NCBI RefSeq assembly: GCF_000378225.1
Contig: NZ_KB905141.1
Location: 697,326 to 761,325 of the forward strand
Source: Methylophilus methylotrophus DSM 46235 = ATCC 53528
GTDB lineage: Bacteria; Pseudomonadota; Gammaproteobacteria; Burkholderiales; Methylophilaceae
Direction: 5' to 3'
DNA length: 64,000 nucleotides
The position numbers and the translations under genes are program-made. The first letter of the stretch is position 1, and every line of letters begins with the position of its first letter. This document shows, piece by piece, positions 16,937-34,697 of this stretch. The notes under the pieces are model-generated. The model saw only the letters and a list, made by a program, of their open reading frames with translations, had not been told where the DNA came from and did no database searches.

Positions 16937-17764
16937 TTAAAACGAATAAGCCTGTTGCCAGTAATGAAACCAGAACAGAAGGCACATGCCAATAGGTAAG
17001 GCTGGAATCACGCCATCAACGCGATCCAGCAATCCACCATGTCCGGGCAGAAATTGCCCGCTGTCTTTCAGGTTGGCGCGACGTTTGAAAAATGACTCAA
17101 ACAAATCGCCATAGATACCAGCAACTGTCACCAGCCACAAACCAGGCAATATCCACCAAGTTGACACCGCACCCGTTATCTTGAGTACGGCGGCATAAAT
17201 GGCCACTGCCAGCAAGGCGCCGAATACGCCTTCCCAGGTTTTACCAGGACTGATGGCTGGCGCCAGCTTATGTCGTCCAAACTGCTTGCCAGCAAAATAG
17301 GCTGCACTATCGGCCAGCCAGATCGTGGAAATAATCACTAGCAACACATAAGGGTTAACCTCTTTGGCCGCCACCAATGCCAGCCACAAAGACATCATCA
17401 ACCCCCAGCCGATGATTGCATTCATTCCTTTATTTTTTGAGAACACATGAAAGAACAAACTGACAGGCACGACAATCAACCAGAACGCGGTTGCGAACGC
17501 AAACACCTGCAAGGCATGATAAAAAAACCAGTGAAAGCCCAGCTGCGGCAATAAAAATAACATCGCCAGCCCCAGCAAAGCAGAGACAGCCAGGTAAACA
17601 TGGGTCTGCGACTTACTCAACTGCAGGAACCCTGCCCACTCACTCAAGCAAATCAGCGTGAGACCTAACATGATTGAGGCCCACGCCAGCAAAGGTAGCC
17701 AAAACAAAGCGGGTAAAAATAATCCCAACAGTACTATGGCAGTAAGAATTCGGGTTTTTAGCAT
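16937..17764 (-). CDS. cdsA: Phosphatidate cytidylyltransferase
   Basis: A 275-residue polytopic membrane enzyme that makes CDP-diacylglycerol for phospholipid synthesis. The CDS signature is split between SPGKTWEGVFGALLA and GDLFESFFKRRANLKDSG, followed by PGHGGLLDRVDG. Several hydrophobic helices precede it. It overlaps neither neighbour; only a few bases separate it from uppS and dxr. Confidence 0.95.
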   Translation of the reverse strand: MLKTRILTAIVLLGLFLPALFWLPLLAWASIMLGLTLICLSEWAGFLQLSKSQTHVYLAVSALLGLAMLFLLPQLGFHWFFYHALQVFAFATAFWLIVVPVSLFFHVFSKNKGMNAIIGWGLMMSLWLALVAAKEVNPYVLLVIISTIWLADSAAYFAGKQFGRHKLAPAISPGKTWEGVFGALLAVAIYAAVLKITGAVSTWWILPGLWLVTVAGIYGDLFESFFKRRANLKDSGQFLPGHGGLLDRVDGVIPALPIGMCLLFWFHYWQQAYSF

Positions 17765-21927: not shown

Positions 21928-21973
21928 TGGCGTCCCCGTCAGGACTCGAACCTGAAACTAGCCCTTAGGAGGG
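21928..21973 (-). pseudogene. 3' part of the host tRNA-Arg(CCU) gene, cut off by the element
   Basis: Read on the minus strand this gives the anticodon loop and 3' anticodon stem (CTCCTAAGGGCT), variable loop, T arm (TCAGG-TTCGAGT-CCTGA), acceptor strand CGGGGAC and encoded CCA. No matching 5' half is adjacent; the sequence on the element side does not form a D arm. The missing 5' half lies 12.7 kb away at 34651-34697. The two halves share the 17-bp core, and joined they form a perfect 76-nt tRNA. As it stands the fragment cannot be a functional tRNA. Confidence 0.9.
21957..21973. repeat. attL: left 17-bp direct repeat of the element
   Basis: ACTAGCCCTTAGGAGGG here is identical to 34651-34667 and in the same orientation. 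The core covers the anticodon loop and the 3' anticodon stem of tRNA-Arg(CCU), a usual target of tyrosine recombinases. Bases beyond the repeat differ on both sides. Confidence 0.9.
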
Positions 21974-22033
21974 TTTGGTTCAAAAATCGCCAACCATTTG
22001 TTTTAAAACATTAATTCAAATTCAATCTTTGTT

Positions 22034-22096
22034 TTTTTGTCAAATTTTTGTCAAATAAATTAGAAAGTTTCTGATTTTTTTGTCAAATTTGTCAAA
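22034..22096. repeat. Left arm-type repeats (TTTTTGTCAAA), probable integrase binding sites
   Basis: The 11-bp unit TTTTTGTCAAA occurs at 22034, 22045 and 22077, with a shortened copy at 22088. They form two tandem pairs with 11-bp spacing. The same unit is present as a tandem pair at the right end of the element. Paired direct repeats a short distance inside each att core are what arm-type sites of lambda-like integrases look like. Confidence 0.65.
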
Positions 22097-22097
22097 T

Positions 22098-22174
22098 TGG
22101 CGTCCTCGACACGAATCGAACGTGCGACCTATTCCTTAGGAGGGAATCGCTCTATCCTACTGAGCTACGAGGAC
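22098..22174 (-). tRNA. tRNA-Arg(CCU) carried by the element
   Basis: A complete 77-nt cloverleaf on the minus strand: acceptor GTCCTCG/CGAGGAC, D arm GCTC...GAGC, anticodon stem ATTCC/GGAAT around CTCCTAA (anticodon CCU, codon AGG), T arm with TTCGATT and encoded CCA. It lies inside the att boundaries and differs from the split host tRNA in the D, anticodon and T stems. It is therefore an independent gene, not a rebuilt host copy. It probably supplies the tRNA function destroyed by integration. It starts 42 nt after the restriction endonuclease gene. Confidence 0.95.
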
Positions 22175-22186
22175 ACAGAAAGCGAG

Positions 22187-22213
22187 ATTTTACACTACTG
22201 AGTAATTAATCAA
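22187..22213 (-). promoter_or_regulatory. Possible promoter of the element-borne tRNA
   Basis: On the minus strand TTGATT (22213-22208) and TAAAAT (22192-22187) are 15 bases apart, about 12 bases before the tRNA. The spacing is short for sigma-70, so this is tentative; read-through from the restriction gene is an alternative. Confidence 0.3.
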
Positions 22214-22216
22214 TGA

Positions 22217-23497
22217 CTATTCTTCTATTTGATTAATTATCCAGTTTGTCCAGCCCAATACAGTAGAAGCTCTTCTGCTGTATGTTTCTTCGGAAGTTAC
22301 TTTATTTAGTTTTGACTCTTTCATTATCAATACAACTTCGTCTTTGGTGGGCATGCTGGCTTTATTGAAATATAACTCTAATGTTTTTCTAAATACGGTT
22401 TTAGCCAATATCAGCTTAATAAAATCAAGTCTACGAGAGCTAATATCCTTTTTAAATATCGCTTTTCCTTTGCTACTGAGACAGGCAGCTATACCACCGT
22501 CTTTAAATGCCTTTTCTGTTAAGCCTAGATATTTGCAAGCATTCAAATAGTAATCAGTTTGCCGAGAGTCAAAGTCGTAGTTTTCTGTAATTTCGTCTTT
22601 GCTCAATATTTCGGAAGTGTTAATCAATTCACATAAATTGATTACTCTTTCAAAAGAGTCGGCTTGTGGGAAAGGTGTATCTAATGGCTCTGGCTCTATG
22701 GCAGTAGCTAAAATTAATTGCTGTATTATTTCAACATTGATCACAATATTGTAAATAGCATACCTCTTACTTTTAACGAGATAGATAGAGTTATAGCCTT
22801 CAATATCTGTAAAAGCATACTCTCTTAATTCAAATACTCCATTTGAATAAGTGAGGTAAACATTTTTTACCTCTTTTTGAATTGTTTCTTTCCATTTTCT
22901 AAATGGATAATAAAGCTGTCTAATAATGAAATCGTCGGATATGTAGTTTTTAGCTTCAATCAATACAAAAGATTTTTCGCCTTCATATCCTCCGTCAATT
23001 TCAATTTGTGCTTTTTCAACTGTGATTTTTTTAGTATGAAATTTATCTAAACTGAATTCAAAAGTGCTTGTTCCCATTCTGCCTGAAACAGTTGAAACTA
23101 ATTCTTCACCAATAAAATCGTCTAATATTTTTGATATAGAAGCGCAGCTTATAGCTGTTGACTCCGAACTAATATTATTGAAATCTAGGCTTTCATAAAT
23201 ATTGCAAAATCTATAATGCTCTACTTCTTCTGGTATTTCTTCAAATTTATGGAAAATATTAAATTTTCCTAATGTGTAAGAGCCACGAGAGGTTGGCAAT
23301 ATTCCAATACCATTTTTAGAAAAAATATTAGGAAGTTGACTAGTATTATCAAACTTAGTCATTAACCTTGCTTCACGAAATTGGTTTATTTGTGTAGAGG
23401 TGATATTAAAGAAATTATGTGTTTCTAATTGATTGAAAATATCGTATTTTTCAAATAACGATGTCCAAGCTAATTGATTAAGATTAGTTTCACTCAT
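22217..23497 (-). CDS. Predicted type II restriction endonuclease
   Basis: A 426-residue protein with a PD-(D/E)XK-like site: D168 in AQIEIDGGYEGE, then E181 and K183 in FVLIEAKN. After it comes DDFIIRQLYYPFRKW, a segment I associate with a family of type II restriction enzymes. The C-terminal third may be a winged-helix DNA-reading part. Its start overlaps the stop of the upstream adenine methylase by eight bases, the classic arrangement for a methylase-restriction pair. Recognition sequence unknown. The tRNA-Arg gene follows 42 nt downstream. AT-rich codon use matches the element, not the host. Confidence 0.8.
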   Translation of the reverse strand: MSETNLNQLAWTSLFEKYDIFNQLETHNFFNITSTQINQFREARLMTKFDNTSQLPNIFSKNGIGILPTSRGSYTLGKFNIFHKFEEIPEEVEHYRFCNIYESLDFNNISSESTAISCASISKILDDFIGEELVSTVSGRMGTSTFEFSLDKFHTKKITVEKAQIEIDGGYEGEKSFVLIEAKNYISDDFIIRQLYYPFRKWKETIQKEVKNVYLTYSNGVFELREYAFTDIEGYNSIYLVKSKRYAIYNIVINVEIIQQLILATAIEPEPLDTPFPQADSFERVINLCELINTSEILSKDEITENYDFDSRQTDYYLNACKYLGLTEKAFKDGGIAACLSSKGKAIFKKDISSRRLDFIKLILAKTVFRKTLELYFNKASMPTKDEVVLIMKESKLNKVTSEETYSRRASTVLGWTNWIINQIEE

Positions 23498-24329
23498 AGT
23501 TTCTAATTAAAACTTCGTCAACCGCACCTCGTTTATCTGCTACTGAATTAATTGCACGATTAGCTTGAATTATGTCAATTGTGTAATCTTTGTAGAGATC
23601 TTTAATAAACTGAGTGCTTGAATTAGACAGCAAAAATTTAACATTTCTTTTTGTTAAATCGTCACACACTTCTTTCAATCGTATTTGATCAGCTTCTTGC
23701 CAGCCACCTTGAACATATCCAGTAAAGTTTGAGCTTTCGGATACTGGGTGATATGGCGGGTCAAAATAAACAAAAGATTTTTCGTCAGCAGATTTAACAG
23801 CTTCGGCATAATCACCATTGAGTATTGTTATATCCTGCTCAGCTAAAAACTTGCTAACAGCCTTTAATACAGGCTCATTCACAATATTAGGGTTTTTATA
23901 GTTGCCGAATGGACTATTAAACTCACCTGAATTATTAACCCGATACAATCCATTGAAACAGGTTTTATTGAGGTAAATTAATCTTGAAGCTTTCTCTACT
24001 GCTGAAAGGTCAGCAAAACTTTTATCTCGGTCTAGCTCACGAATTTTATAGAAGTATGTAGAAGTGTTCTCGTGCTTCTTCAAGCTTTCTATAAGGTCGT
24101 CTAAGTTGTTTTTAACAACATTGTAGGCATTAACCAGGTCAGCATTAAAATCGTTGATTATGGAGTGTTTATTTTGCAGGTGGAAAAACACTGCTCCCCC
24201 ACCAATAAATGGCTCAAAATATTTAAGCTTAGCTATGTCTTTGGGTAAGACAGGCTTGATTTGATCAATCAACTGTCTTTTACCTCCCACCCATTTAACA
24301 AATGGGGTTATAAGCTTGTTTTTCGCCAT
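23490..24329 (-). CDS. Dam-family DNA adenine-N6 methyltransferase
   Basis: A 279-residue alpha-class methyltransferase. The AdoMet site is KYFEPFIGGGAVFFHL (residues 37-51) and the catalytic DPPY motif is at 190-193. The segment LIYLNKTCFNGLYRVN is typical of the Dam/DpnM group. The protein would protect host DNA from the adjacent endonuclease. Family members methylate GATC or related sites, but the target here is not proven. An inverted repeat stands 25-47 bases before the ATG and could be its operator. Confidence 0.9.
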   Translation of the reverse strand: MAKNKLITPFVKWVGGKRQLIDQIKPVLPKDIAKLKYFEPFIGGGAVFFHLQNKHSIINDFNADLVNAYNVVKNNLDDLIESLKKHENTSTYFYKIRELDRDKSFADLSAVEKASRLIYLNKTCFNGLYRVNNSGEFNSPFGNYKNPNIVNEPVLKAVSKFLAEQDITILNGDYAEAVKSADEKSFVYFDPPYHPVSESSNFTGYVQGGWQEADQIRLKEVCDDLTKRNVKFLLSNSSTQFIKDLYKDYTIDIIQANRAINSVADKRGAVDEVLIRNYE

Positions 24330-24353
24330 TTTATCACTCTCAATTTACAGGCG

Positions 24354-24376
24354 AAACTGTAACACAATTACAGTTT
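24354..24376. promoter_or_regulatory. Perfect palindrome upstream of the restriction-modification genes
   Basis: AAACTGTAA (24354-24362) and TTACAGTTT (24368-24376) are exact reverse complements separated by CACAA. It lies just upstream of the methylase start. The half-site TTACAG recurs several times upstream of the RepL-like gene in the same element. It is a good candidate operator for methylase timing control. There is no T-run, so it is unlikely to be a terminator. Confidence 0.6.
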
Positions 24377-24499
24377 TTACAAGCGCTCTGGTAGCACCTG
24401 AACAACAAAAAATTATGACTTAAAACTCAATGTTTACAAGGCTTTTGTCGTAAATTGCTTATACAAGAATAGCTTACAGCTTATCCAGCATATCCATAA

Positions 24500-24543
24500 T
24501 AAAAAACCACACTGAGAAGCCAACAAGCTATCTCAAAGTGTGG
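24500..24543 (-). terminator. Terminator downstream of the two small unknown genes
   Basis: On the minus strand CCACACTTTGAGA and TCTCAGTGTGG pair with a two-base bulge, and the stem is followed by a run of six T. It closes the transcript of the genes at 24593-25257 and separates it from the restriction-modification unit. Confidence 0.75.
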
Positions 24544-24592
24544 GGTGTGTTGTGGGTATGTGGTTAAGGTTATTTCTCCACACTAAACAACA

Positions 24593-24856
24593 TTAATGAT
24601 AATAATCAAACTTATAATTGAAAACATTATTCAATTCGTCAAATTTCATTTTGAACTCAAATTGATTTTGATAAATCATTTCTAAATTATCTTTCGTTGT
24701 TGCCCTTAGGTAATTAATCAATACCTCACTAATCATAGGACCATAATTTAATAACAAGTAATCTTGCTCATATGGAACTTTAAGAATAATGTTTTTAGCA
24801 CAACACATTAAGAATTGCTGCTTTGAATAACCATGATATTTTTTATTTTTATTCAT
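24593..24856 (-). CDS. Hypothetical protein, 87 aa
   Basis: A small basic protein without a family I can recognise. The ATG at 24856 has GGAAGGGAA upstream; an in-frame TTG lies two codons earlier. The sequence is rich in K, N and Y, has no signal peptide or membrane segment, and matches the AT-rich element style. It directly follows the gene at 24859-25257 and is closed by a terminator. Confidence 0.6.
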   Translation of the reverse strand: MNKNKKYHGYSKQQFLMCCAKNIILKVPYEQDYLLLNYGPMISEVLINYLRATTKDNLEMIYQNQFEFKMKFDELNNVFNYKFDYYH

Positions 24857-24858
24857 TA

Positions 24859-25257
24859 TCAATTCCCTTCCGAAACTTCAACAAGCAAAGGAAAAGGAAT
24901 ATCATTTAAAGCTGAGTTAACAATGTCATTAACTAAGCTAGGAATGAATACGAAAGGGAGATTGATATCTAAGAACCTATCAACTCTTGCAGGGGAATTG
25001 CTGTGGATTTTGCTTTCAATCTCATAAACTAATTGATATTTATCAGTTTCGGAGTTGAAGCCAATACTGAAATGTATAAGCTTTAATTTTAAGTCTTTTA
25101 GTTTTTTCTGGAATTTTAGAAATTTATCTAAGGTCTCACTATTAACAAGAGCTTTTAATATATGATTGTTATTACTAGCTAAGTTAATTCCTTTATTACT
25201 TCTTAAAACATCTCTAAATAAATCACCATAGATCGGGTGTTTTGTAATTGCTTGCAT
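24859..25257 (-). CDS. Hypothetical protein, 132 aa
   Basis: A soluble 132-residue protein with a lysine-rich central stretch (LDKFLKFQKKLKDLKLK) and a hydrophobic C-terminal part. No family is recognised. It has a good Shine-Dalgarno (AAAGGAAAT) before the ATG and sits downstream of the relaxase gene across a 131-bp gap, so it may belong to the mobilization transcript. Confidence 0.6.
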   Translation of the reverse strand: MQAITKHPIYGDLFRDVLRSNKGINLASNNNHILKALVNSETLDKFLKFQKKLKDLKLKLIHFSIGFNSETDKYQLVYEIESKIHSNSPARVDRFLDINLPFVFIPSLVNDIVNSALNDIPFPLLVEVSEGN

Positions 25258-25388
25258 AATTATTTCCTTTATTTCAAGTTTAGTTTTGTTTCTCCTTTAC
25301 CCGATTGGTGGGTTCTTCGCTAAAGAAATAATGTTAACACATTTTAAAAATGTTTACAACATATATTTAATATAAATTAAAGTTTTAT

Positions 25389-27089
25389 TTATTTTCCTAT
25401 TACAATTTCATTACTAACTGATTTAGAATTATTTATAAATTTTTCATTTAGTTTTTTATTTATTGAATTATGAAACTCAATTATTTCATTAAGTTTTTTA
25501 TTAATCTGTCCTTCTGTTAATTCAGTTTTATCTTCAAGCTCTAATAATTTATTGTTTAGCTCAATTTCATTTGCTTGGCTTAAACTCTCAATGTAATCAT
25601 TACTAGTTAAATCATTGTTGCTTGTAGTGCCTGATTTCTCGCTGTGGCTTAATTCCTCTTTAAGTTGTGCTATCTGTTCTTCAATAGCTCCCTTGTGTTT
25701 CATATAGTCAGGATCAAGAGGGTCTAGGCTCAATAAACTGAGCTCTAATCGCTTTATATCCCCTATTGTGGCTGTCTTATTACTATCACCAGATCTTGAA
25801 GTGGTTACAGGTGTGCTAGCTGGCTTGCGTGGTGTTGCAGATTGGCTAGGTTGTGCTTTTGTTGCTGCTTGGCTTGGTTGTGCCTGTGGCTTGCTCTGGC
25901 TAAGTGTAGAAGTACCAGGACTTCTATTAGAAAGCTTTGCAAAGGTCTTAGATTGACTAGATTTATTGAATGTATTTAATGATTTTGTTATGAATGCATT
26001 TTTTGAATAAACAAAATTGTTTTTGGTGAATTTGCTTAATTTGTTATCTTTTTTAAATTCTTCTAATTTTTCAGTGTTTGTTTTATTAGAAAATTTTGCA
26101 TTACTTAAAGATAATGTTTTAAGCTTCTTCATTGAAACAGTCGCTTTTCTATCCTTCATTAATTCATTAAGGGTTTTGTCTTGACTAGTTTGCTTTTCTT
26201 TTATGCTCTCTAATTTATTTTTATCAAAACCTAATGCCTTAGCATTCCCTTGCCAGTAAGATCTCAAATCTTCTAAATTATGACTGTCCTTTTTAGCTCT
26301 TACTTTTAAGCTGACTTCTTGTTTTTTTGAATAGTCTGCATTTTCCCCAGCTAATTTATTAATTTGTTCACTTCTTTTTGAGAAGTTATCTCTTAACTCG
26401 TCTGTAATACCTTTTACTGCAAAGTTTCCGTGTTTATCAGCTTCATAAAGATTGAAGCCTAATTCTTGCAAACCTTTTGCTAATTCATATTGCCCGACTT
26501 GATCAAAGTATCTAATCGTTTCGTGTCCGTTATGCTTTTCATACTTAGCCTGCAATAAAGTATGAGAATGGTATTTATTATCTTTGCCTAGAACCTTAGG
26601 GAAAACTGTAAAGTGTGTGTGCTCCTGGGCATCAACTACGCCTAAGGGGTTAATGATTTTGTCGTTAACCTCTCGGCTTGTGTGGTGATTGAATGTAGCT
26701 ATTCCAACGGCTTTGGCTAATTCAAAAGTGGTTTTATTGTTCTCTGTTTTTCTTATGTATGTGTTTTGCTCAATGGCTCTACATATCGCATTTACTGCCT
26801 TATCTCTATAAACGTCCATTTTCAAACGTGTTTCTTCGTCCGATAGGTTATAAATCAAGGTCCAGTCCTTAGGAGGTGAGAAACAAATATCAATGCCTTT
26901 ATTGTTTTCGCCTCCGAAGTCTATTTGCTTCAAGTATTGTTTTTCTGTAACTGGCTTATTTTCTAAGCCTTGATATCTCATTAAAGTGCCTTTAAAAATA
27001 CCTTGCTCGTTGTCGTTCTCACTGTAATAGTCGTGTTGAGAATGGTCTAAGTGATAACTTACATTATTGATTTTTCCGATTGAGATCAT
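25389..27089 (-). CDS. MobF-type (TrwC/TraI N-terminal) conjugative relaxase
   Basis: A 566-residue protein. The N-terminus has the tyrosine pair Y21-Y22, the TrwC-type segment GIDICFSPPKDWTLIY (about 65-80), and the metal-binding histidines in FNHHTSRE and HTHFTVFPKV (H135/H136, H157, H159). Next come ELAKGLQELGFNLYEAD and NFSKRSEQIN, also typical of TrwC. It would nick oriT and lead the strand during transfer. The helicase domain of full-length TrwC/TraI is absent; the C-terminal 250 residues are low-complexity and S/T/Q/K-rich. Its start overlaps the coupling-protein stop by four bases. Confidence 0.82.
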   Translation of the reverse strand: MISIGKINNVSYHLDHSQHDYYSENDNEQGIFKGTLMRYQGLENKPVTEKQYLKQIDFGGENNKGIDICFSPPKDWTLIYNLSDEETRLKMDVYRDKAVNAICRAIEQNTYIRKTENNKTTFELAKAVGIATFNHHTSREVNDKIINPLGVVDAQEHTHFTVFPKVLGKDNKYHSHTLLQAKYEKHNGHETIRYFDQVGQYELAKGLQELGFNLYEADKHGNFAVKGITDELRDNFSKRSEQINKLAGENADYSKKQEVSLKVRAKKDSHNLEDLRSYWQGNAKALGFDKNKLESIKEKQTSQDKTLNELMKDRKATVSMKKLKTLSLSNAKFSNKTNTEKLEEFKKDNKLSKFTKNNFVYSKNAFITKSLNTFNKSSQSKTFAKLSNRSPGTSTLSQSKPQAQPSQAATKAQPSQSATPRKPASTPVTTSRSGDSNKTATIGDIKRLELSLLSLDPLDPDYMKHKGAIEEQIAQLKEELSHSEKSGTTSNNDLTSNDYIESLSQANEIELNNKLLELEDKTELTEGQINKKLNEIIEFHNSINKKLNEKFINNSKSVSNEIVIGK

Positions 27090-29269
27090 ATTTCTAACTC
27101 CTTTTTATTTTTGTTTTTAGTTAGCAAGCTTCTAATTTCGTCTATCTCAGTGATATTGTTGTTTTTGCTTTCTGTTGTTAAGTTTTCTACTATGTCGCCA
27201 GCAAGATTGATAGTTGCTAATGCTCCGGTGGTATCAATAGAGTGAGCTATAACCTCCTTAATGGCTCCTTCCAATGGGTTTGTATCAATCTCAGTTTTTG
27301 AAGGCTCTAAATGAGTTGTTACAATGCTTTCATTTATAACAATCTCTTGATTGGTCGTAATAATCTCTTGTTGCTTATCTTCTAATGCTGAATTAATTTT
27401 ATTGATTGGCTTAGAGCTAGCAGCGCTTGAACTTGATTTGAAGCTAGGTTTAAATTTCTTAGGAAATTTAACAGGGGGCATAATCACAACAGGCATAACC
27501 TTATCTTGTGAGTATTTGAATAAAACTCTTACTCCAATGAAGTTAAGGTTTTTGTCAGTTTGTGGTCCAAGAATATTATTGAGCTCATTAATGTTGTAGG
27601 CAGGTTGTTTTTTCTCAGTAGTTTTATTTGAAAATGTTTGACCTTGGGCTGTGAAGTTTGTAGTTGTTGAATATTCAATTATGTCCTGTTCGCCTATCAA
27701 TTCCTTAATGTATTCAACTTCGTCACTAGCAAAACGGCAGACAATTTTGTTTTGAAAACTTGCCATAAATGATTTGTGATCAGCTGGCTTATTGTTAGAT
27801 TGAAATTTCTCTTTGATTTGTGAGCTTCTTTGAAGAATTACAGTTGTTCTAATATTCTTACTTCTGCCAACGTCTGGAAGCTTCATAAAATTATCTAAAT
27901 CAATGCTAGATAATTGGGGGAATTCGTCAAGTATGAAATGTATTTGAGAGGTTGGCTTATATGAGTTATCTATAAGCTCTGGCACGATTAAATTAATAAA
28001 TGCACCAATATATGAGTTTGCTATATCACTATATTTATTAGAGTTAGATAGCATTATTACTTGTCTATCTTTTTTATTAGCTATCCACTCTCTAATATTA
28101 AGAGACTTTTCTTTTTCTTTCTTATTCCAAAAACTGCTTAAAGTTTCAAACTTTCTTATTATCTCAATGCAACTAGCAAGAACACATAATGAAGTTTTAG
28201 CATTTTCACTATTAATGTATATGCTCGCAGTTGGGTTGTATTTTGTAATGAATTTATTGATTTCATCCAATTGCCCCTGATTTTTCTTTAACTCTTCTTT
28301 TAGCTTTGATAAATCGTCACTTGTAACAGTGTTTATATCTACTGGCTGAATGTTAAAGCTATTCCATTGTTTAACAATGTCGCCTAATGTGCCTTTAACT
28401 ACTCCGTTTTCTTTGGTGGTTCTAACGACACTTCTTACAAAGCTATCAATCACAGAGATTGAGCCGACGTCAAAAAAGTCCTTCTTGTTAGCCCCTTCGG
28501 TAAATGCCATTACAAATGTTCTAATTCTGGAATTTTCGTTTTCTAGCTCGTCACTTGCTACTAGATTAAGAAAATCTATTGCATAGCCTGCTTTCTTGTT
28601 CCAGGGCTCTATAAGATAAAGGCTTGTATATCCGTCTAGCTTCTCTAATTCGTCACCTTTAACATTGTGAACAATGGCTTTGTGGTCATTGTCTATAACT
28701 TCCTTTAATAGCCTATCTGTGTAAAGCGTCTTACCCGATCCAGCTTCTCCGGTGATCACTGTTGAGAGCTCTAAAACTGGCTTAGGCAAGTAAATAGTTT
28801 TTTTGAGTGGTTTGTATTTGTGGCTGTTTAAATCAAGTTCACCAGCTCTTAAAAATGCTATTGTTTGATCGGTAGACTTATGAGCAAAGTTTTTGCTTAA
28901 ATTAGTTAAAACTTCTTCTGTATCGTCTACTATATTTCCAGCTTTTATTACTTGTCTATTTTGTGCTTTTGTAAATTGGTTAGTTAAAAAGTGAGAAACT
29001 AAACAAGAAGGAATGAAAAAAAATAGTATCGTGAATTGAAATAAAACTGAGTTTATTTTCATATACTCATAGTCTTTATTCAAAAACAATTTGAATTGTT
29101 TTATAAAATCTAAACCCAAATACTTATTGAAAAATAAATATGTGAGTGAGAAAAAGACAGCAGAGAATAAGACGATATTGAAAACAATTATGTGATTTGT
29201 GTATCTTCTAAACTCGGACGGTGCTAAAAATGCGTCTTGCTTTGGACTTGATATATACCTAATTTTCAT
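27086..29269 (-). CDS. Type IV coupling protein (TraD/TrwB/VirD4 family)
   Basis: A 727-residue ATPase. Two membrane segments (about 28-48 and 75-96) precede the motor domain. Walker A is GEAGSGKT (174-181) and Walker B lies in SQIHFILDEFPQL (441-453). The segment between them matches the all-alpha domain of TrwB-like proteins. It would bring the relaxase-DNA complex to a mating channel. The C-terminal 130 residues look disordered. It is coupled to the relaxase gene by ATGA overlap. A channel-forming system is not encoded here. Confidence 0.88.
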   Translation of the reverse strand: MKIRYISSPKQDAFLAPSEFRRYTNHIIVFNIVLFSAVFFSLTYLFFNKYLGLDFIKQFKLFLNKDYEYMKINSVLFQFTILFFFIPSCLVSHFLTNQFTKAQNRQVIKAGNIVDDTEEVLTNLSKNFAHKSTDQTIAFLRAGELDLNSHKYKPLKKTIYLPKPVLELSTVITGEAGSGKTLYTDRLLKEVIDNDHKAIVHNVKGDELEKLDGYTSLYLIEPWNKKAGYAIDFLNLVASDELENENSRIRTFVMAFTEGANKKDFFDVGSISVIDSFVRSVVRTTKENGVVKGTLGDIVKQWNSFNIQPVDINTVTSDDLSKLKEELKKNQGQLDEINKFITKYNPTASIYINSENAKTSLCVLASCIEIIRKFETLSSFWNKKEKEKSLNIREWIANKKDRQVIMLSNSNKYSDIANSYIGAFINLIVPELIDNSYKPTSQIHFILDEFPQLSSIDLDNFMKLPDVGRSKNIRTTVILQRSSQIKEKFQSNNKPADHKSFMASFQNKIVCRFASDEVEYIKELIGEQDIIEYSTTTNFTAQGQTFSNKTTEKKQPAYNINELNNILGPQTDKNLNFIGVRVLFKYSQDKVMPVVIMPPVKFPKKFKPSFKSSSSAASSKPINKINSALEDKQQEIITTNQEIVINESIVTTHLEPSKTEIDTNPLEGAIKEVIAHSIDTTGALATINLAGDIVENLTTESKNNNITEIDEIRSLLTKNKNKKELEI

Positions 29270-29317
29270 TTTTTAATTACTCCTTATTGTTATTTTTATC
29301 AGTAATTTTTTTGTATT

Positions 29318-29557
29318 TTATTTGTTGCTCATAACTTCTAAAATCTTTCCTAACACTAAATTTATGTTTTCAATTTCTTCATTTGTGTGATTAACTTTTT
29401 CTAATACTTTGCTTTCTTCTTCCTTTTTTAAAATATATTTTTCTAAAATATCATTGATAAAATCGTTTAAATTATTGAATTTTTCTTCTTGTGATTTCTT
29501 TGTTAAAACTATTTTTACCAACGGTTTTAATCTTATTGTCATTTGTTCTTTTTTCAT
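29318..29557 (-). CDS. Small ribbon-helix-helix-like protein, possible relaxosome accessory
   Basis: A 79-residue protein starting MKKEQMTIRLKPLVKIVLTKKSQEEKFNNLNDFINDILEK in outline: a beta strand, two helices, then a charged tail. This is the pattern of Arc/MetJ-type DNA-binding proteins. It lies 48 bp before the coupling protein and relaxase genes, where TrwA/MobC-type accessory proteins are usually encoded. Function inferred from position and fold pattern. Confidence 0.6.
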   Translation of the reverse strand: MKKEQMTIRLKPLVKIVLTKKSQEEKFNNLNDFINDILEKYILKKEEESKVLEKVNHTNEEIENINLVLGKILEVMSNK

Positions 29558-29865
29558 TTTTATTATCCTTTTGTTGTTGTTTTTATACTTCTAGTTATAA
29601 GTCATTTTTATTCAATGTCAAGATTTAGAATTAGACTTTTTTATTAATGGCTTTAAATAAGGATTTTGATTAAGTCTTGCCTTTGATTTTTGGGTTTATA
29701 GAATTAAGTCTCACTTCATAGGTTTTAACCTATATATCTATATCCCATAAGGGATATAGCAGAATCGCGACACGGAAGTGTTGCACTATGTTTGAAAGAA
29801 TTAGTTATAATTCTTGGGGTAGCTAGCTAGCTCTTTTGATTTTGGCTTTTGTTCTTAGTTTTTGA
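29558..29865. other. Non-coding gap with inverted repeats, candidate oriT
   Basis: No convincing gene in about 310 bp. It contains a perfect inverted repeat, CTATATCCC (29738-29746) and GGGATATAG (29751-29759) around ATAA, then a small stem ACAC/GTGT about 10 bp further. It sits directly upstream of the ribbon-helix-helix, coupling protein and relaxase genes, which is where oriT lies in MobF plasmids such as R388. No nic sequence can be identified with certainty. Confidence 0.35.
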
Positions 29866-29890
29866 ATAAAAAAAATCCCCTTTCGGGGAA
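29866..29890 (-). terminator. Rho-independent terminator
   Basis: CCCC and GGGG around GAAA, followed on the minus strand by ATTTTTTTT. It ends the transcript of the 59-residue protein gene just upstream. Confidence 0.8.
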
Positions 29891-29898
29891 ATTTTAAT

Positions 29899-30078
29899 TT
29901 ACAAATCACTGGTTAATTTTTCAATATGTTTATTTGTTTTACTGTCTTTATCTTGTGAAGTTCTAAACATTAGCTCTATGAATTTACTTAATGATAGGTT
30001 GTAGTAACTTGAAACTTCTATCATTTCTTTTTTTAACTCCTCACTAACTCTCATTGATATTTTTTTGGTCTTTTTCAT
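29899..30078 (-). CDS. 59-aa ribbon-helix-helix DNA-binding protein
   Basis: A short gene on the minus strand: ATG at 30078 preceded by AAAGGAGACATTGAA, a strong ribosome site, and TAA at 29899. The protein begins MKKTKKISMRVSEELKKEMI and continues with SSYYNLSLSKFIELMF, a clear strand-helix-helix pattern of small plasmid repressors and relaxosome proteins. A terminator follows immediately. It may regulate the mobilization or copy-control genes. Confidence 0.72.
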   Translation of the reverse strand: MKKTKKISMRVSEELKKEMIEVSSYYNLSLSKFIELMFRTSQDKDSKTNKHIEKLTSDL

Positions 30079-30091
30079 TTCAATGTCTCCT

Positions 30092-30418
30092 TTATTTTAT
30101 TGTTATAGACTTGTGAAAATGAAGAATGATAAATTTTTCTATGTCTTTATGTCCTGCGTATGTATCCCACAGCTCTAAAAATTCTTCAATTTGTTGCTCT
30201 GCAAACTCATTGAAATAGATATCTAACTTATTGAAATTGTTTAGACCTGTTCTCTCATAGATTGAAAAAATCATTTGATTTCTGTTGTAAGCAATAAATT
30301 GATTATTCCAGCCTCCGAAAATTTGAGTGTCCTTGTATCTCAAAATCTCTTTTACTAGTGGAATTTTCTCTTTCTTTGATACATATAAATTGTTTTTTAG
30401 TTTTATTAAAGCTTCCAT
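30092..30418 (-). CDS. Hypothetical protein, 108 aa
   Basis: No family recognised. The protein is soluble, with an aromatic-rich middle (FGGWNNQFIAYNRNQMIF) and an acidic helix (FNEFAEQQIEEFLELW). AAAGGAGA precedes the ATG. It is the last of three consecutive unknown genes on the minus strand; the gap to the upstream gene is zero bases. Confidence 0.6.
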   Translation of the reverse strand: MEALIKLKNNLYVSKKEKIPLVKEILRYKDTQIFGGWNNQFIAYNRNQMIFSIYERTGLNNFNKLDIYFNEFAEQQIEEFLELWDTYAGHKDIEKFIILHFHKSITIK

Positions 30419-30829
30419 TTAGTTGTCTCCTTTATTATTATCTGGGTGCTTATTGGTTTTTATTGTGTCAAACAATTCATTAACTATCTTGTCTGCAACT
30501 TCTTCGTCTGTGAATAAATCTTCTACTTCATTGAGGAATAAACCTCTTTCACTGGAAAAATTGTCATTTGCAAAAATATCAAAATCTTGCTTTTCTCTTA
30601 CGGGTTCTGCTAATCTCTTTTTTTCTCTCTCAACTCTTTCTATATCTTGAATGTGTTGCATTTCAATGCTTGCTAAAACAAAAGCCATTGTTAAATTTAT
30701 GTTTTCGTATAAGTTTTTTTTGATATCATTCAAATACATTAATTCAAGATGTAACATATTTTCTTTTTCTTTCTCAATTTCATTGATTAGCTTTAAATCA
30801 TTGAAATAACTTTTTAATGTGCTATCCAT
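30419..30829 (-). CDS. Hypothetical protein, 136 aa
   Basis: No family recognised. The N-terminal half is helical and charged, with coiled-coil character around residues 10-70. The C-terminal half is acidic (VEDLFTDEEVADKIVNELFD). The gene has an AAAGGAGA ribosome site and lies between two other unknown element genes in one apparent operon. Confidence 0.6.
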   Translation of the reverse strand: MDSTLKSYFNDLKLINEIEKEKENMLHLELMYLNDIKKNLYENINLTMAFVLASIEMQHIQDIERVEREKKRLAEPVREKQDFDIFANDNFSSERGLFLNEVEDLFTDEEVADKIVNELFDTIKTNKHPDNNKGDN

Positions 30830-30854
30830 TTTATTATCTCCTTTATTTTTTTTA

Positions 30855-31436
30855 TTATTGGATCGGTGCCTTACATTGAAATCTATATGTAATGTATAGT
30901 TTTTTCTCTACCTCTTTTACAATCTCTTTCAATACTTTTTCAAGCTCTTCTTTATCATTGATTCTTTCATATGCTTGCATTCTTCTATCATTTAGATCTT
31001 TAAGAATTTCATATAAAAGATTGCAGTTCTTAATCATTCCAATTTTTTTAAATCGTGTTGGCTTGAAAATCTTAAACTCATACTGATTGAAGAAATGACT
31101 GTATGCATATTCTTTCTTGATTGTTCTATATACATAGAAATCTCTATCTTTAAGCTTTTCGTAAAATATTGAAGCTATACAAGATAAAACTGATTTAGCT
31201 ACACAAAGCTGTGGAATATCTATAAAATAATCTTTTGAGCTATCTAAAAAGTTAATTGAACCTGTTTTGCAAACTAGATTATTAATTATTGCAGTATCGC
31301 CAAAATCGAATGGTGTGATATGAATGTAATAGTCTCTTGAATAGCTAGGATAATTATTAACTTGTTCTTTGTAATATTTGTAATAAGTATTTATGTATTT
31401 TAGTTCTAATAAGTAATTTTTTATTTTTTTTATCAT
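30855..31436 (-). CDS. Hypothetical protein, 193 aa
   Basis: No family recognised. It is tyrosine- and lysine-rich (YINTYYKYYKEQ near the N-terminus) with a C-terminal helix EELEKVLKEIVKEVEKKLY. There is no signal peptide. It is the first gene of a three-gene minus-strand group and abuts the origin-like non-coding region, so it could relate to replication or stability, but nothing in the sequence proves this. Confidence 0.6.
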   Translation of the reverse strand: MIKKIKNYLLELKYINTYYKYYKEQVNNYPSYSRDYYIHITPFDFGDTAIINNLVCKTGSINFLDSSKDYFIDIPQLCVAKSVLSCIASIFYEKLKDRDFYVYRTIKKEYAYSHFFNQYEFKIFKPTRFKKIGMIKNCNLLYEILKDLNDRRMQAYERINDKEELEKVLKEIVKEVEKKLYITYRFQCKAPIQ

Positions 31437-31611
31437 TATTAAACCTCTCCTTTATTATTGTTATTCTTTAAATTTAATAAATGAATTCCAATTGTCAATA
31501 CATCGTCATTACATTTTAAAAATATATTTATTGAGTTCTATAAAAAAACAGGTCGCTCGCAAGCTCGCTTTTTGAAAGTAGGTTGTGCATTCGCACAAGA
31601 TCTTGATAGGT

Positions 31612-31643
31612 CTTAATAAACCCTCTAATGAGTGTTTATTAAG
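31612..31643. repeat. 10-bp perfect inverted repeat
   Basis: CTTAATAAAC (31612-31621) and GTTTATTAAG (31634-31643) are exact reverse complements with a 12-base centre. They are part of the origin-like region; no T-run follows. Confidence 0.75.
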
Positions 31644-31885
31644 GCTTATTGATAATGAGATATAGAAATTTGATTTAAAAGGCTTGTAGGCTCTTAAAAT
31701 GTGACTGAGCTCGTAGAGTTTCTTAACTTATCTGTTCTTCTTGATTTAGCTTGACCTTGCTTCGCAGAAGCTACTTTCCAGGAGCGAAGCGACCAGGGTT
31801 GTTAAGACCTAGCAGGTTTTAGCTTAACTAGTTTTGTTGTGAGCCATAGCGAACACAAACAAAACGGCTCTTATTAAGATTTCTC

Positions 31886-31917
31886 TTTATCTATATCTAT
31901 TTATAGATATAGATAAA
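31886..31917. repeat. 15-bp perfect inverted repeat
   Basis: TTTATCTATATCTAT (31886-31900) and ATAGATATAGATAAA (31903-31917) are exact reverse complements with a two-base centre. This is the longest palindrome in the element and could extrude as a cruciform, act as an origin hairpin, or bind a dimeric protein. Confidence 0.8.
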
Positions 31918-31984
31918 TCTATATCTGTCTAGCTGACTTTTTTAGTCAATTCTCTATAAGCCTTTTAGAATAAGGCTTAATTCA

Positions 31985-32141
31985 CTGTAAAAGCATTTTT
32001 AATTTAGTCCACTTTATTACAGTATTTTCTGTATATTTTTGGACTAACTGTATTTATTCACTTTCAAATTACAGAATATTCTTTATTAAATTACAGTTTT
32101 TTGAGACTATAAAATAGAATTTTTTTCTTGAAAATCTGTAA
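31985..32141. repeat. TTACAG/CTGTA box cluster upstream of the RepL-like gene
   Basis: Copies of TTACAG or its reverse complement (some as CTGTAT) lie at 31985, 32017, 32029, 32048, 32069, 32091 and 32136. Two of them form TACAG/CTGTA (32018-32033) nested inside TTAGTCCA/TGGACTAA (32004-32047). The last box ends about 60 bp before the gene. They look like iterons or operator sites. The same box forms the palindrome before the restriction-modification genes. Confidence 0.55.
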
Positions 32142-32208
32142 TTATGTTATTGACTTTTACCTTTTAGTTGCTTTAATTAAATTAGAACAACAATAAAGGG
32201 TGGAATTA

Positions 32209-32775
32209 ATGAAAGAGAATAAATTTATTAAGCAGTATTTAGATAATAATAATATTGAAGTTAAAAACGGAAAGTTTTATAGCAAGAATACTAGATCAAT
32301 TAAAAATACTGTTGAGCTTGCAGACGATAAGCAGTTTATTAAAGTTTTTATTAGTGCTAACGGTGTATTGAGCAATTTAAAGAATAGTTCTAAATTAGTC
32401 TTTGAGTATGTTTTTAAATGTTTACAAGACAGTGCCAGCTTTAATAAGACTGAAATAGAAGTTAATTTTAAGCATTACACAAGGTTTTGCAGATACAGCA
32501 AAATAAAGCCTTTGTGTGAAAAAAGCTTTTATTTAGCTAGAAAACAATTGATTGAATTAGATATTATTGACGAGACAGAAGAAAAGGGAATATTCTTTTT
32601 TAATCTAAACTATTTTTTTAATGGCAATAGAATTACTGTTATTACCGAGTATGTGAGAGTAAACAGTGAGTCTACAAGCGATAATATTATTGTTCTTGAT
32701 ACTGTCATACCAATTAGAGAAGATAATGAGCTAGAAGGCTATAAACAATCTAAAAGGTCAGCATTTCAAAGCTAA
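32209..32775 (+). CDS. RepL-like winged-helix replication/maintenance protein
   Basis: A 188-residue protein and the only plus-strand gene in the element. The central part (about residues 45-150) has the pattern of a winged helix: FIKVFISANGVLSNLKNSSK, a recognition-type helix LCEKSFYLARKQLIELDII, then a beta wing. This resembles RepL-type plasmid initiators, but the match is by pattern only. ATG at 32209 with AAAGGG eight bases upstream is preferred to GTG at 32200. The iteron-like boxes upstream support a replication role; a repressor is the alternative. Confidence 0.55.
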   Translation: MKENKFIKQYLDNNNIEVKNGKFYSKNTRSIKNTVELADDKQFIKVFISANGVLSNLKNSSKLVFEYVFKCLQDSASFNKTEIEVNFKHYTRFCRYSKIKPLCEKSFYLARKQLIELDIIDETEEKGIFFFNLNYFFNGNRITVITEYVRVNSESTSDNIIVLDTVIPIREDNELEGYKQSKRSAFQS

Positions 32776-32798
32776 TAAAAAAACCCCAAATTTTGGGG
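32776..32798 (-). terminator. Terminator between the RepL-like and H-NS-like genes
   Basis: CCCCAAA/TTTGGGG hairpin with an A-run on its left, so it has a T-run on the minus strand. It mainly serves the H-NS-like gene and may also act on the convergent RepL-like gene. Confidence 0.7.
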
Positions 32799-32825
32799 CT
32801 TAGTTATTTACTGTCATTTTAGTTA

Positions 32826-33119
32826 TTACTTAATCAATGCTTTATCAAGTGAACCGTGCAAGTCAATAAAACCTTTCACCCAAGCAGGCTGTCTTCCTAT
32901 TCCTGACCAAGTTTGTTCTGGAAAATCTGGATTAGCATACATAGCTTTCTTTTTTTCTGTGTTGTTAGTTTTAAACAACTCTTCTGTTGTAATGCCATAT
33001 TGAGAAATAGTTTTTTTCAATTCTTTGATTATGTCTTTTCTTGACTCTTTTAAAACCTTTTGTTTTTCAACTTCTAATGCCTTAATTTCTTTTTCAATCT
33101 CTGTTAGTGTTTTAGCCAT
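32826..33119 (-). CDS. H-NS-family nucleoid protein
   Basis: A 97-residue protein of normal H-NS length. An N-terminal coiled coil (about 5-40) for oligomerization is followed by a linker and the C-terminal DNA-binding motif TWSGIGRQPAWVKGF (residues 70-84), the H-NS AT-hook-like loop region. Element-borne H-NS proteins usually bind AT-rich DNA and silence the element's own genes to lower their cost. It sits beside the integrase gene and could control excision; that is inference. Confidence 0.88.
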   Translation of the reverse strand: MAKTLTEIEKEIKALEVEKQKVLKESRKDIIKELKKTISQYGITTEELFKTNNTEKKKAMYANPDFPEQTWSGIGRQPAWVKGFIDLHGSLDKALIK

Positions 33120-33195
33120 TTTTATTATTCTCCAATTCGTTTAATTAAATATAACAAAACCGATGATATTCACGTTTTATTCAAAAGTAAACTTT

Positions 33196-34497
33196 TTATT
33201 CAATCTTTTTAGTTATATTGTCAATTAAATTTCTTGTGTAGTGTTTTGTCATTCCCTTGGTTAAATGACCAACTTGTCTTTGTGTGTCTCTTTCATTCAA
33301 TTTATTATCACTATTAACTCTTAAATTTTCTTCGTGATTAAATAAGTGAGTTTTCTCAAAGTATGCAATGTCATTAATGTTTGCAAGCTCACTAACAGAC
33401 ATAGGGTTTAAATGTTCTTCTAATGCTCTACTAATAAACTCACTTCGTAAGTCCTGAAATTTAAAATCTTCAATGCCTGTCGACTTCTTAATTCTCTGCC
33501 ATTGTGAATTGAAACCTTCAATTGTCAGCTTAAAGACTTTATCAGTAAGCTTTTTATGCTCATTATCTTTAATTAGCTTACTTACGATAATTTGAGCCTC
33601 TGGAAGCAATTTAACCTTGCGGGGCAAGCCGTTTTTTGTTTTATATAGCTGTATGTAGTTATCTTTCAAATCACCTTTTTTAAGTAGCATAATTTCACTT
33701 TTTCGCATTCCGGTGAGTAAGGCTAACACTGTGATAATGACTAAACTTTTATTGTCATTGCTTTGTAATGCTGTTAAAAGTTTTGTTTCTTCTTCTTCAC
33801 TTAGTCTACGATCTCTTTTAATGAATGCATTTTTTAAAGCCTTCTTATTGACTTTGCGAACTGGGTTAATGTCTTTCAATACTTCATATTTACTATAATA
33901 ATTCGAGAAGTTATTAAAAAAACTACTTATATAGTTCAGCTCTCTCTTAACAGTAGCTTTTGCAACTGTTTCTAACCTTTTATCAATATAGCTGGCTATA
34001 TCTGCGCTTGTCATTTTTAAAGGGTTTAGCTCCCCGAATTTAATCGTATACTCGTCTGCAAAGGCATTAGCTACTGCAACAGGGGAAGTTAAGAACATTG
34101 AATTATCAGTTATTTCTAATGCAGAAATATTTTTAATGAGCTTTCTATATTTACGATTACTCATTTTGTCTAATTCGTTTAAATCATTATGTTTTCTAAT
34201 GAAATGCTTTTCATTGAAAGCTTCTAACAATGCTTCTAAGCTATCATTTAATTGATATTGACTTCTTTCATACTCGTCAAAAGCTTGTTGTTCTTCTTGT
34301 GTAAGGAAGTTATTTAAAGCATTTTTTCCGATAATCGTTTTTGAGTTGTTAATGATTTCATTAGCAATGTCCAGGCTATCAACTAACTTATTTAATTTGA
34401 GTTCTTTTTTATTAATTCTAACTCTGTATTTAGTTATGACTGTTCCGTCTTTTTGCTTATAGCTGACTTCTTGTATACCTTTTTGAATGTGTGCCAT
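33196..34497 (-). CDS. int: Tyrosine recombinase / integrase of the element
   Basis: A 433-residue site-specific recombinase next to the right attachment site. Catalytic positions: R265 in LLTGMRKSEIMLL, R351 in FKFQDLRSEFISR, H411 in QVGHLTKGMTKHY, nucleophile Y420. The usual His of the HxxR motif is replaced by Gln (Q348), a tolerated but less common variant. The N-terminal 230 residues contain an arm-binding and a core-binding SAM-like domain. It would join the 17-bp cores in the tRNA-Arg(CCU) anticodon region. Confidence 0.92.
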   Translation of the reverse strand: MAHIQKGIQEVSYKQKDGTVITKYRVRINKKELKLNKLVDSLDIANEIINNSKTIIGKNALNNFLTQEEQQAFDEYERSQYQLNDSLEALLEAFNEKHFIRKHNDLNELDKMSNRKYRKLIKNISALEITDNSMFLTSPVAVANAFADEYTIKFGELNPLKMTSADIASYIDKRLETVAKATVKRELNYISSFFNNFSNYYSKYEVLKDINPVRKVNKKALKNAFIKRDRRLSEEEETKLLTALQSNDNKSLVIITVLALLTGMRKSEIMLLKKGDLKDNYIQLYKTKNGLPRKVKLLPEAQIIVSKLIKDNEHKKLTDKVFKLTIEGFNSQWQRIKKSTGIEDFKFQDLRSEFISRALEEHLNPMSVSELANINDIAYFEKTHLFNHEENLRVNSDNKLNERDTQRQVGHLTKGMTKHYTRNLIDNITKKIE

Positions 34498-34512
34498 TTC
34501 TAACCCTTATTT

Positions 34513-34566
34513 TTGACAAAATCGATTAGAACAGCCCCCTCTTTTTTTGTCAACTTTTTGTCAAAA
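34513..34566. repeat. Right arm-type repeats (TTTTTGTCAA), probable integrase binding sites
   Basis: TTTTTGTCAAC at 34544 and TTTTTGTCAAA at 34555 form a tandem pair with 11-bp spacing, and an inverted copy (TTGACAAAA) lies at 34513. They match the repeats at 22034-22096 and lie between the integrase start and the right att core. Confidence 0.65.
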
Positions 34567-34650
34567 TAATGAGGGAAAACGAATTTTTTGAAGATACTTA
34601 AAAATATAAGTAATTGATATTTATATATATAATTTTAACTTAATAAAATT

Positions 34651-34667
34651 ACTAGCCCTTAGGAGGG
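34651..34667. repeat. attR: right 17-bp direct repeat of the element
   Basis: ACTAGCCCTTAGGAGGG, identical in sequence and orientation to 21957-21973. To its right the host tRNA-Arg sequence continues; to its left the sequence is AT-rich element DNA. Confidence 0.9.
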
Positions 34668-34697
34668 GCTGGTGATATCCTGTTTCACCACGAGGAC
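34651..34697 (-). pseudogene. 5' part of the host tRNA-Arg(CCU) gene, cut off by the element
   Basis: On the minus strand this reads acceptor GTCCTCG, D arm GTGA...TCAC, anticodon stem AGCCC, loop CTCCTAA and GGGCT, then stops at the element edge. The next bases are AT-rich and cannot form a T arm. Joined to 21956-21928 it gives a full 76-nt tRNA with a seven-base-pair acceptor stem. The host promoter lies to its right, so a truncated transcript may still be made. Confidence 0.9.

Follow-up and report, generated by a model that had tools for sequence, protein, structure and literature searches.

Relation to described systems

Temperate actinobacteriophages that practise tRNA-dependent lysogeny (Guerrero-Bustamante and Hatfull 2024, PMC10865867) use a tyrosine integrase to enter an attB site within a host tRNA gene, share with that gene a core of 8-17 bp that does not rebuild it, and carry a tRNA of the same isotype. 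Here we describe a locus in a 64,000-nucleotide stretch of the Methylophilus methylotrophus DSM 46235 = ATCC 53528 genome (assembly GCF_000378225.1, contig NZ_KB905141.1, positions 697,326 to 761,325 of the forward strand; hereafter the window), where a 12,694-bp integrated element interrupts a host tRNA-Arg(CCU) gene and brings an intact tRNA-Arg(CCU) of its own.

The window element is a case of tRNA-dependent integration, following the logic of tRNA-dependent lysogeny in a non-phage carrier: it combines a tyrosine integrase, an attB in a host tRNA, a short non-rebuilding core and a carried tRNA, and no other CCU gene is found in the draft assembly. The actinobacteriophages differ in being temperate phages, in having been shown experimentally to need the tRNA and in exploiting other tRNAs, whereas the window element bears a relaxase and has no recognised phage genes, and its need for the carried tRNA is a likelihood. 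The authors of that work state that prevalence beyond the actinobacteriophages needs study (PMC10865867).

Similar arrangements have been reported in other organisms. Lo5R7ANS-like prophages occupy tRNA-Leu(UAG) in Sinorhizobium meliloti; these are prophages, in two strains of an alphaproteobacterium (PMC11476347). The prophage Lj965 of Lactobacillus johnsonii leaves its target tRNA unrestored and carries the cognate tRNA (as cited in PMC10865867). In the archaeon Caldiarchaeum, the tRNA-Thr(GGU) locus contains a 5' tRNA fragment, a recombinase-encoding stretch and an intact tRNA with the same anticodon (PMC3293823), a layout much like those of genome G029 and of the probable fossils in G126, G144 and G147 described below; it differs in that the archaeal stretch spans 1.8 kb and was interpreted by its authors chiefly as a way in which tRNA introns and scattered fragments could arise. 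Within the Methylophilaceae, tycheposons and the replacement island fGI-1 associate a tRNA gene with a tyrosine recombinase at tRNA-Met, and fGI-1 ends at a tRNA-Arg(CCU) (PMC10872708). These were compared by description, and the available part of that article reports no broken tRNA with a carried substitute.

The window element also resembles integrative and mobilizable elements, having an integrase, a relaxase and a coupling protein with no recognised mating-pore genes. Those that target tRNA genes usually restore the target, and in this the window element differs. Among the titles and abstract openings listed by literature searches, which covered few subscription journals, there was no relaxase-bearing element of this type.

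The host tRNA gene is split in its anticodon arm

The element splits the host tRNA-Arg(CCU) gene, and the features that define the split are the following.

21957..34650, no strand assigned: integrated, apparently mobilizable element of 12,694 bp, delimited by a direct-repeat core at both ends, a drop in G+C content and an empty site in congeners
34651..34697, minus strand: host tRNA-Arg(CCU), 5' half with core copy 34651-34667; all positions (47/47) agree with the 5' part of the gene in 10 of the 11 congeners where it is intact
21928..21956, minus strand: 3' half of the host tRNA-Arg(CCU), outside core copy 21957-21973
21957..21973, no strand assigned: att core copy, 17 bp, on the 3'-half side
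34651..34667, no strand assigned: att core copy, 17 bp, on the 5'-half side

The original prediction, made from the sequence before any search, had placed the two halves outside opposite ends of the element, and all of its coordinates are confirmed. It had also proposed a 17-bp core over the anticodon region; this core, ACTAGCCCTTAGGAGGG, is present at both junctions (21957-21973 and 34651-34667), and the break lies in the anticodon arm. Because the attP match is limited to these 17 bp, the host gene is cut in two and restored at neither junction. When minus-strand positions 34697-34651 and 21956-21928 are joined, they form a 76-nt tRNA-Arg(CCU) that is accepted by ARAGORN with every stem paired and a single G-U in the acceptor, in agreement with the cloverleaf that had been anticipated. 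No complete tRNA is found by ARAGORN at either junction, which sets the locus apart from canonical tRNA-restoring islands, and the single tRNA called across the 64-kb window is the one inside the element (22098-22174, minus strand, Arg(CCU)). The G+C fraction is 0.306 in the element against 0.49 and 0.50 in the flanks. The window is part of a 1.35-Mb contig of a 2.86-Mb genome assembled in 13 contigs.

Relatives were searched for the uninterrupted gene, as had been recommended, in the 22 genomes of the genus (the window genome and 21 others). The rejoined tRNA is uninterrupted, and confirmed by ARAGORN each time, in 11 of the 21 congeners: five genes are identical over 76/76 positions and six are 93-100% identical over 72-76 nt. 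The intact gene lies between the same two flank genes as the element, which we take to be rpsB and dhaL, in 10 of the 11; the remaining genome, G017, has the intact gene with a match on the rpsB side only. The recurrence of the uninterrupted gene, mostly between the same flanks, shows that the split gene is not a chance arrangement. Among the ten congeners without a match to the rejoined gene, eight have an intact tRNA-Arg(CCU) of other sequence (two beside dhaL, six lacking both flank genes within the 1.6-3 kb seen), and two are drafts showing none.

Two congeners, G009 (stretch L045, 13681-13757) and G001 (L047, 13450-13526), contain a different tRNA-Arg(CCU), inverted, beside dhaL, with ∼7.5 kb of ordinary-looking genes between that tRNA and rpsB; G009 and the window genome encode identical rpsB proteins. 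These loci were considered as a second element at the same site, given a foreign-type CCU tRNA beside dhaL and rpsB ∼8 kb off, and this was ruled out by a host-like G+C content, ordinary-looking open reading frames (by eye) and the failure to find host-gene halves at these loci.

The carried tRNA and the CCU copy number

Two features concern the tRNA carried by the element.

22098..22174, minus strand: the element's intact tRNA-Arg(CCU), 77 nt, CCA encoded (ARAGORN)
22187..22192, minus strand: -10-like hexamer TAAAAT, 12 nt upstream of the carried tRNA (by eye, in AT-rich DNA, no background control)

The carried tRNA, located 124 bp inside the integrase-distal end of the element, has the isotype of the broken gene, Arg(CCU), and is 71% identical to it. 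Its predicted position and integrity were confirmed by ARAGORN, and with the host gene destroyed and a foreign isoacceptor in place, the proposed substitution of a foreign tRNA for the host one is supported. The genome-wide count of CCU tRNA genes that had been called for gave one: all 38 Rfam tRNA matches in the assembly were read with ARAGORN, and the Arg anticodons were UCU, CCG, ACG and a single CCU, that of the element. No second CCU tRNA was found in the 13-contig draft, either among the 38 matches or by a CCU-tRNA pattern search, whose two matches in this genome are the broken 3' half and the element's gene. tRNA-Ile(GAU) and tRNA-Ala(UGC), which are usually located in rRNA operons, are absent among the 38, so the draft likely has gaps at rRNA operons.

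In the congeners, the same pattern gave one ARAGORN-confirmed tRNA each in 19 of 21 genomes, ARAGORN rejecting the second matches in G008 and G016 as tRNAs. The count is exactly one in all six single-contig congeners, and no match was obtained in two drafts, G018 and G021 (80% and 94% completeness). The tRNA at 22098-22174 was also sought in relatives, another check suggested at the outset, and none closer than 89% was found in the 186 other family genomes (E ≤ 1e-18). The closest tRNA, in G167 (89%), was set aside as host-type; by eye, it is followed by an integrase-like frame. Upstream of the carried tRNA of the related element in G139 (see below), a TAAAAT hexamer is seen by eye at the same distance, and a -10-like hexamer (TAAAAT, TAGAAT or TATAAT) lies 11-15 nt before each of seven carried or foreign tRNAs (by eye, AT-rich, no control).

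Related elements in other Methylophilaceae

The integrase was searched against 187 family genomes at a threshold of 1e-20, giving matches in five, its own included: two others are full length (G139 and G054) and two are partial (G033 and G112). The G139 integrase is 76% identical to that of the window element, and the resemblance extends to the relaxase (71% over the first 383 residues), the coupling protein (65%) and a 191-aa protein (74%); the restriction pair of the window element has no match in the G139 element. This element splits a host tRNA-Arg(CCU) that is 68% identical to the one in the window, at an 11-bp core. Its own tRNA-Arg(CCU), placed 125 bp in from the end away from the integrase, shares 70% identity with the gene that was broken; both host halves and the carried tRNA are on one contig. 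Full-length counterparts of the rejoined G139 gene (88-92%) occur in 35 of 51 other genomes of its genus, and the flank gene beside it, presumably peroxiredoxin-like, lies ≤1.5 kb from that gene in three of the 12 loci fetched from relatives.

The G054 integrase is more distant (37% identical). It follows the 5' half of a tRNA-Val(GAC) split at a 14-bp core on one contig, and a second contig has the 3' half, with an intact tRNA-Val(GAC) at a distance of 100 bp that matches the broken gene at 79% identity. The rejoined tRNA-Val(GAC) is 100% identical to an uninterrupted gene in six of 11 other genomes searched. In G055, an intact tRNA-Val(GAC) lies between homologues of the flanks found on G054's two contigs (90% over the 145 residues present on its contig, in a gene we take to be threonyl-tRNA synthetase-like, and 53% over 362 residues), which argues that the G054 contigs come from opposite sides of a single locus. 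On the contig that holds the tRNA end (L154), positions 1243-2739 encode a DUF5906 helicase-like protein (PF19263), so cargo or replication in G054 differs from that of the window element.

In both full-length integrase relatives (2/2), the anticodon of the carried tRNA matches that of the broken gene, and across the related elements this tRNA lies 100-125 bp inside the integrase-distal end. A search of genome contigs returned the G139 and G054 contigs again and nothing further. Among plasmids, the coupling protein had no match at 1e-20 and the integrase matched 16 records, none covering over 80% of the query; the integrase had one partial match among phages, and a search of viral contigs gave 27 pattern matches, none confirmed.

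An unrelated element and probable fossils

A CCU-pattern screen of the 187 genomes yielded, among the matches listed, 12 stretches that were picked as odd or multiple CCU matches and do not form a census; four of the 12 gave an element or a probable fossil. A thirteenth stretch that was retrieved is the second G054 contig. In G029, a 1.3-Mb genome, an 11.4-kb element (L150, 4409-15819) splits tRNA-Arg(CCU) at a 7-bp core, exactly CTCCTAA, and the split position is exactly the 7-bp anticodon loop. Its integrase has no significant similarity to that of the window element, its carried tRNA-Arg(CCU) begins 8 bp past the integrase stop, and it contains an NgoPII-type restriction pair. Both host halves and the carried tRNA are on one contig. 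A native-type CCU copy without a 5' end, not called by ARAGORN, lies at 17094-17161, 1.3 kb beyond the 3' half.

Three further genomes, G126, G144 and G147, have a common arrangement at the stretches below: the 5' half of a native gene, with its break in the anticodon arm, together with a related spacer and a foreign tRNA-Arg(CCU) in inverted orientation.

L155, 10720-11021: probable fossil
L156, 5947-6210: probable fossil
L159, 1684-1937: probable fossil

The native 3' half was not found in the stretches fetched from these genomes. The loci are probably fossils of a third kind, an assignment made with less confidence than the others. The other stretches were rejected: two intact CCU tRNAs are present in each of G023 and G081, a second stretch of G033 contains fragments only, G064, G089, G120 and G137 have one CCU tRNA of other type with no native half seen, and G073 has no CCU tRNA.

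Proposed mechanism

Taken as a whole, the locus is very probably best explained by the integrase of an integrative and mobilizable element recombining a short attP with the anticodon arm of tRNA-Arg(CCU), the carried tRNA replacing the one that is lost. The cut would be made at the 7-bp anticodon loop; according to a review, such integrases have their 7-bp overlap at this loop, the stem providing the core sites (PMC8371274). Candidate arm sites lie near both ends of the element.

22036..22095, plus strand: four clustered TTTGTCAA motifs that may serve as integrase arm sites, G139 having a comparable layout
34513..34564, no strand assigned: a further three TTTGTCAA motifs, one of them inverted, that may likewise be arm sites

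All seven copies of TTTGTCAA in the element are ≤154 bp from an end, 1.5 being expected (maximum 6 in 100 first-order Markov simulations), and all six copies in G139 are ≤125 bp from an end with similar spacing, a distribution from which we infer integrase arm sites. The three related elements share one orientation: int lies after the 5' half of the host gene and reads the same way, and the carried tRNA is directed towards its att core, so that the order in the excised circle would be tRNA, attP, int. The tRNA may thereby arrive together with the integration machinery. It would have its own promoter, while the host tRNA promoter would point at int once the element is integrated. The payoff would be that the 3' half of each host's tRNA need not be matched.

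Dependence of the cell and alternative explanations

The cell likely needs the element's tRNA for as long as the element stays in place. Since the host gene would be rebuilt by precise excision, any such dependence would be reversible and limited to the integrated state; harm would come only from losing the carried tRNA without excision.

Several observations weigh against the proposed mechanism or its generality. One further copy of TTTGTCAA lies in the host flank (21850), and a strict promoter scan lists nothing upstream of the element's tRNA. Both G139 and G054 come from metagenome assembly, the former with 6% contamination, and the two ends of the G054 element are on different contigs. The partial integrase matches in G033 and G112 (32-33%) have an intact tRNA-Arg(CCU) and tRNA-Ser(GCU) nearby. 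A profile search in 399 genomes sampled from the order (threshold 1e-40) added four integrases, in G431, G261, G241 and G303, that are 26-32% identical: one adjoins an intact tRNA-Val(CAC), two adjoin a presumably msrA-like gene (G261, one of these two, has internal stops), and that of G303 has no recognised site. All four were rejected as tRNA breakers, no broken tRNA being found at the integrase end, the end that was traced. On present evidence, the tRNA-breaking habit is confined to the near integrase clade. Finally, the assembly contains a tRNA-Arg(UCU), so CCU loss might be tolerated.

That last point is the starting point of the reading in which the carried tRNA is a mere passenger and AGG is read well enough without it. 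tRNA-Arg(UCU) might read AGG by wobble, and AGG is uncommon, accounting for 45 codons out of 14,985 in a mechanically chosen set of 44 host open reading frames of the window and occurring in 22 of them. We consider a passenger unlikely, since G139 and G054, found by integrase similarity alone, both carry the anticodon of the broken gene; G029 does likewise, but its odd tRNA was the reason for selecting it, so it provides no independent test. A CCU tRNA is moreover retained in 19 of 21 congeners, the exceptions being the two incomplete drafts G018 and G021, and in the phage precedent the carried tRNA is reported to be required for lysogen survival (PMC10865867). A conventional tRNA-targeting island that has lost its restoring end through decay and happens to lie near an unrelated tRNA would fit the usual behaviour of tRNA islands, which restore their gene (PMC4383910), but is highly improbable here: the outer flanks are complementary halves of one gene that together are identical to the intact gene in five congeners, and relatives with 11- and 14-bp cores follow the same plan. 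An assembly artefact joining unrelated contigs is scarcely credible; the genome is a 13-contig draft, but the window lies within one 1.35-Mb contig with identical cores at the junctions, and in G139 and in G029 a single contig spans the two halves and the carried tRNA.

Implications for tRNA gene replacement

Replacement of the tRNA by the element, as proposed above, adds to the described systems a non-phage carrier, a conserved tRNA-attP-int layout and two isoacceptors, Arg(CCU) and Val(GAC). This suggests that phages are not alone in practising tRNA-dependent integration and that a mobilizable element can join the translation machinery while integrated. Because a whole tRNA is shipped, a match is needed only to the conserved anticodon arm, so hosts with differing tRNA bodies could be entered, as with the two Arg(CCU) targets that are 68% identical. 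This offers a concrete mechanism for the horizontal replacement of single-copy tRNA genes.

A broader reading, for which we see an even chance, is that a portable tRNA-attP-int module has spread in the conjugation-type elements of the family, swapping single-copy tRNAs and being retooled between Arg(CCU) and Val(GAC). The strategy would then have arisen at least twice, given the second integrase family of G029, and the carried tRNA could outlive its element, as in G126, G144 and G147, providing a recurrent route to native tRNA loss and foreign fixation. Under this module reading, the 5'-half fossils beside foreign tRNAs imply recurrent replacement of vertically inherited tRNA genes, which would explain the patchwork look of the family's tRNA-Arg(CCU) sequences among the matches listed.

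Gene content of the element

The analysis treated 13 open reading frames as genes; every one was compared with one or more of Pfam, NCBIfam and PHROGs, though not every frame with all three. Those with an assignment or a counterpart are listed below.

33196..34497, minus strand: tyrosine integrase, 433 aa (PF00589, 4e-14; phrog_1, 3e-31)
25389..27089, minus strand: MobF/TrwC relaxase, 566 aa (PF08751, 7e-41; NF041492 above cut-off)
27086..29269, minus strand: type IV coupling protein, TrwB/TraD-like, 727 aa (PF10412, PF12696)
29318..29557, minus strand: small, perhaps Arc-like protein, 79 aa (weak phrog_582, E 0.004)
32826..33119, minus strand: H-NS-like protein, 97 aa (PF00816, 5e-8)
32200..32775, plus strand: 191-aa protein without assigned family; 74% identical counterpart in the G139 element
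22217..23497, minus strand: type II restriction enzyme, 426 aa, cargo (PF22518/PF23871/PF22515; PADLOC PDLC03513, 1002 bits)
23490..24329, minus strand: Dam-family adenine methyltransferase, 279 aa, cargo (PF02086; TIGR00571)

The integrase gene is downstream of the 5' half of the host tRNA gene and is read in that gene's direction. No phage structural family was recognised among the 13 open reading frames, which separates the element from temperate phages, and of a type IV secretion apparatus only the coupling protein was recognised, with no mating-pore genes, several small reading frames being without a family. With an integrase, a relaxase and a coupling protein but no recognised mating-pore genes, the element bears the marks of an integrative and mobilizable element, as judged from its predicted proteins. 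The PDLC03513 match spans all 426 positions of the restriction enzyme, which adjoins the Dam-family methyltransferase; at a guess, the restriction pair (22217-24329) might recognise GATC.

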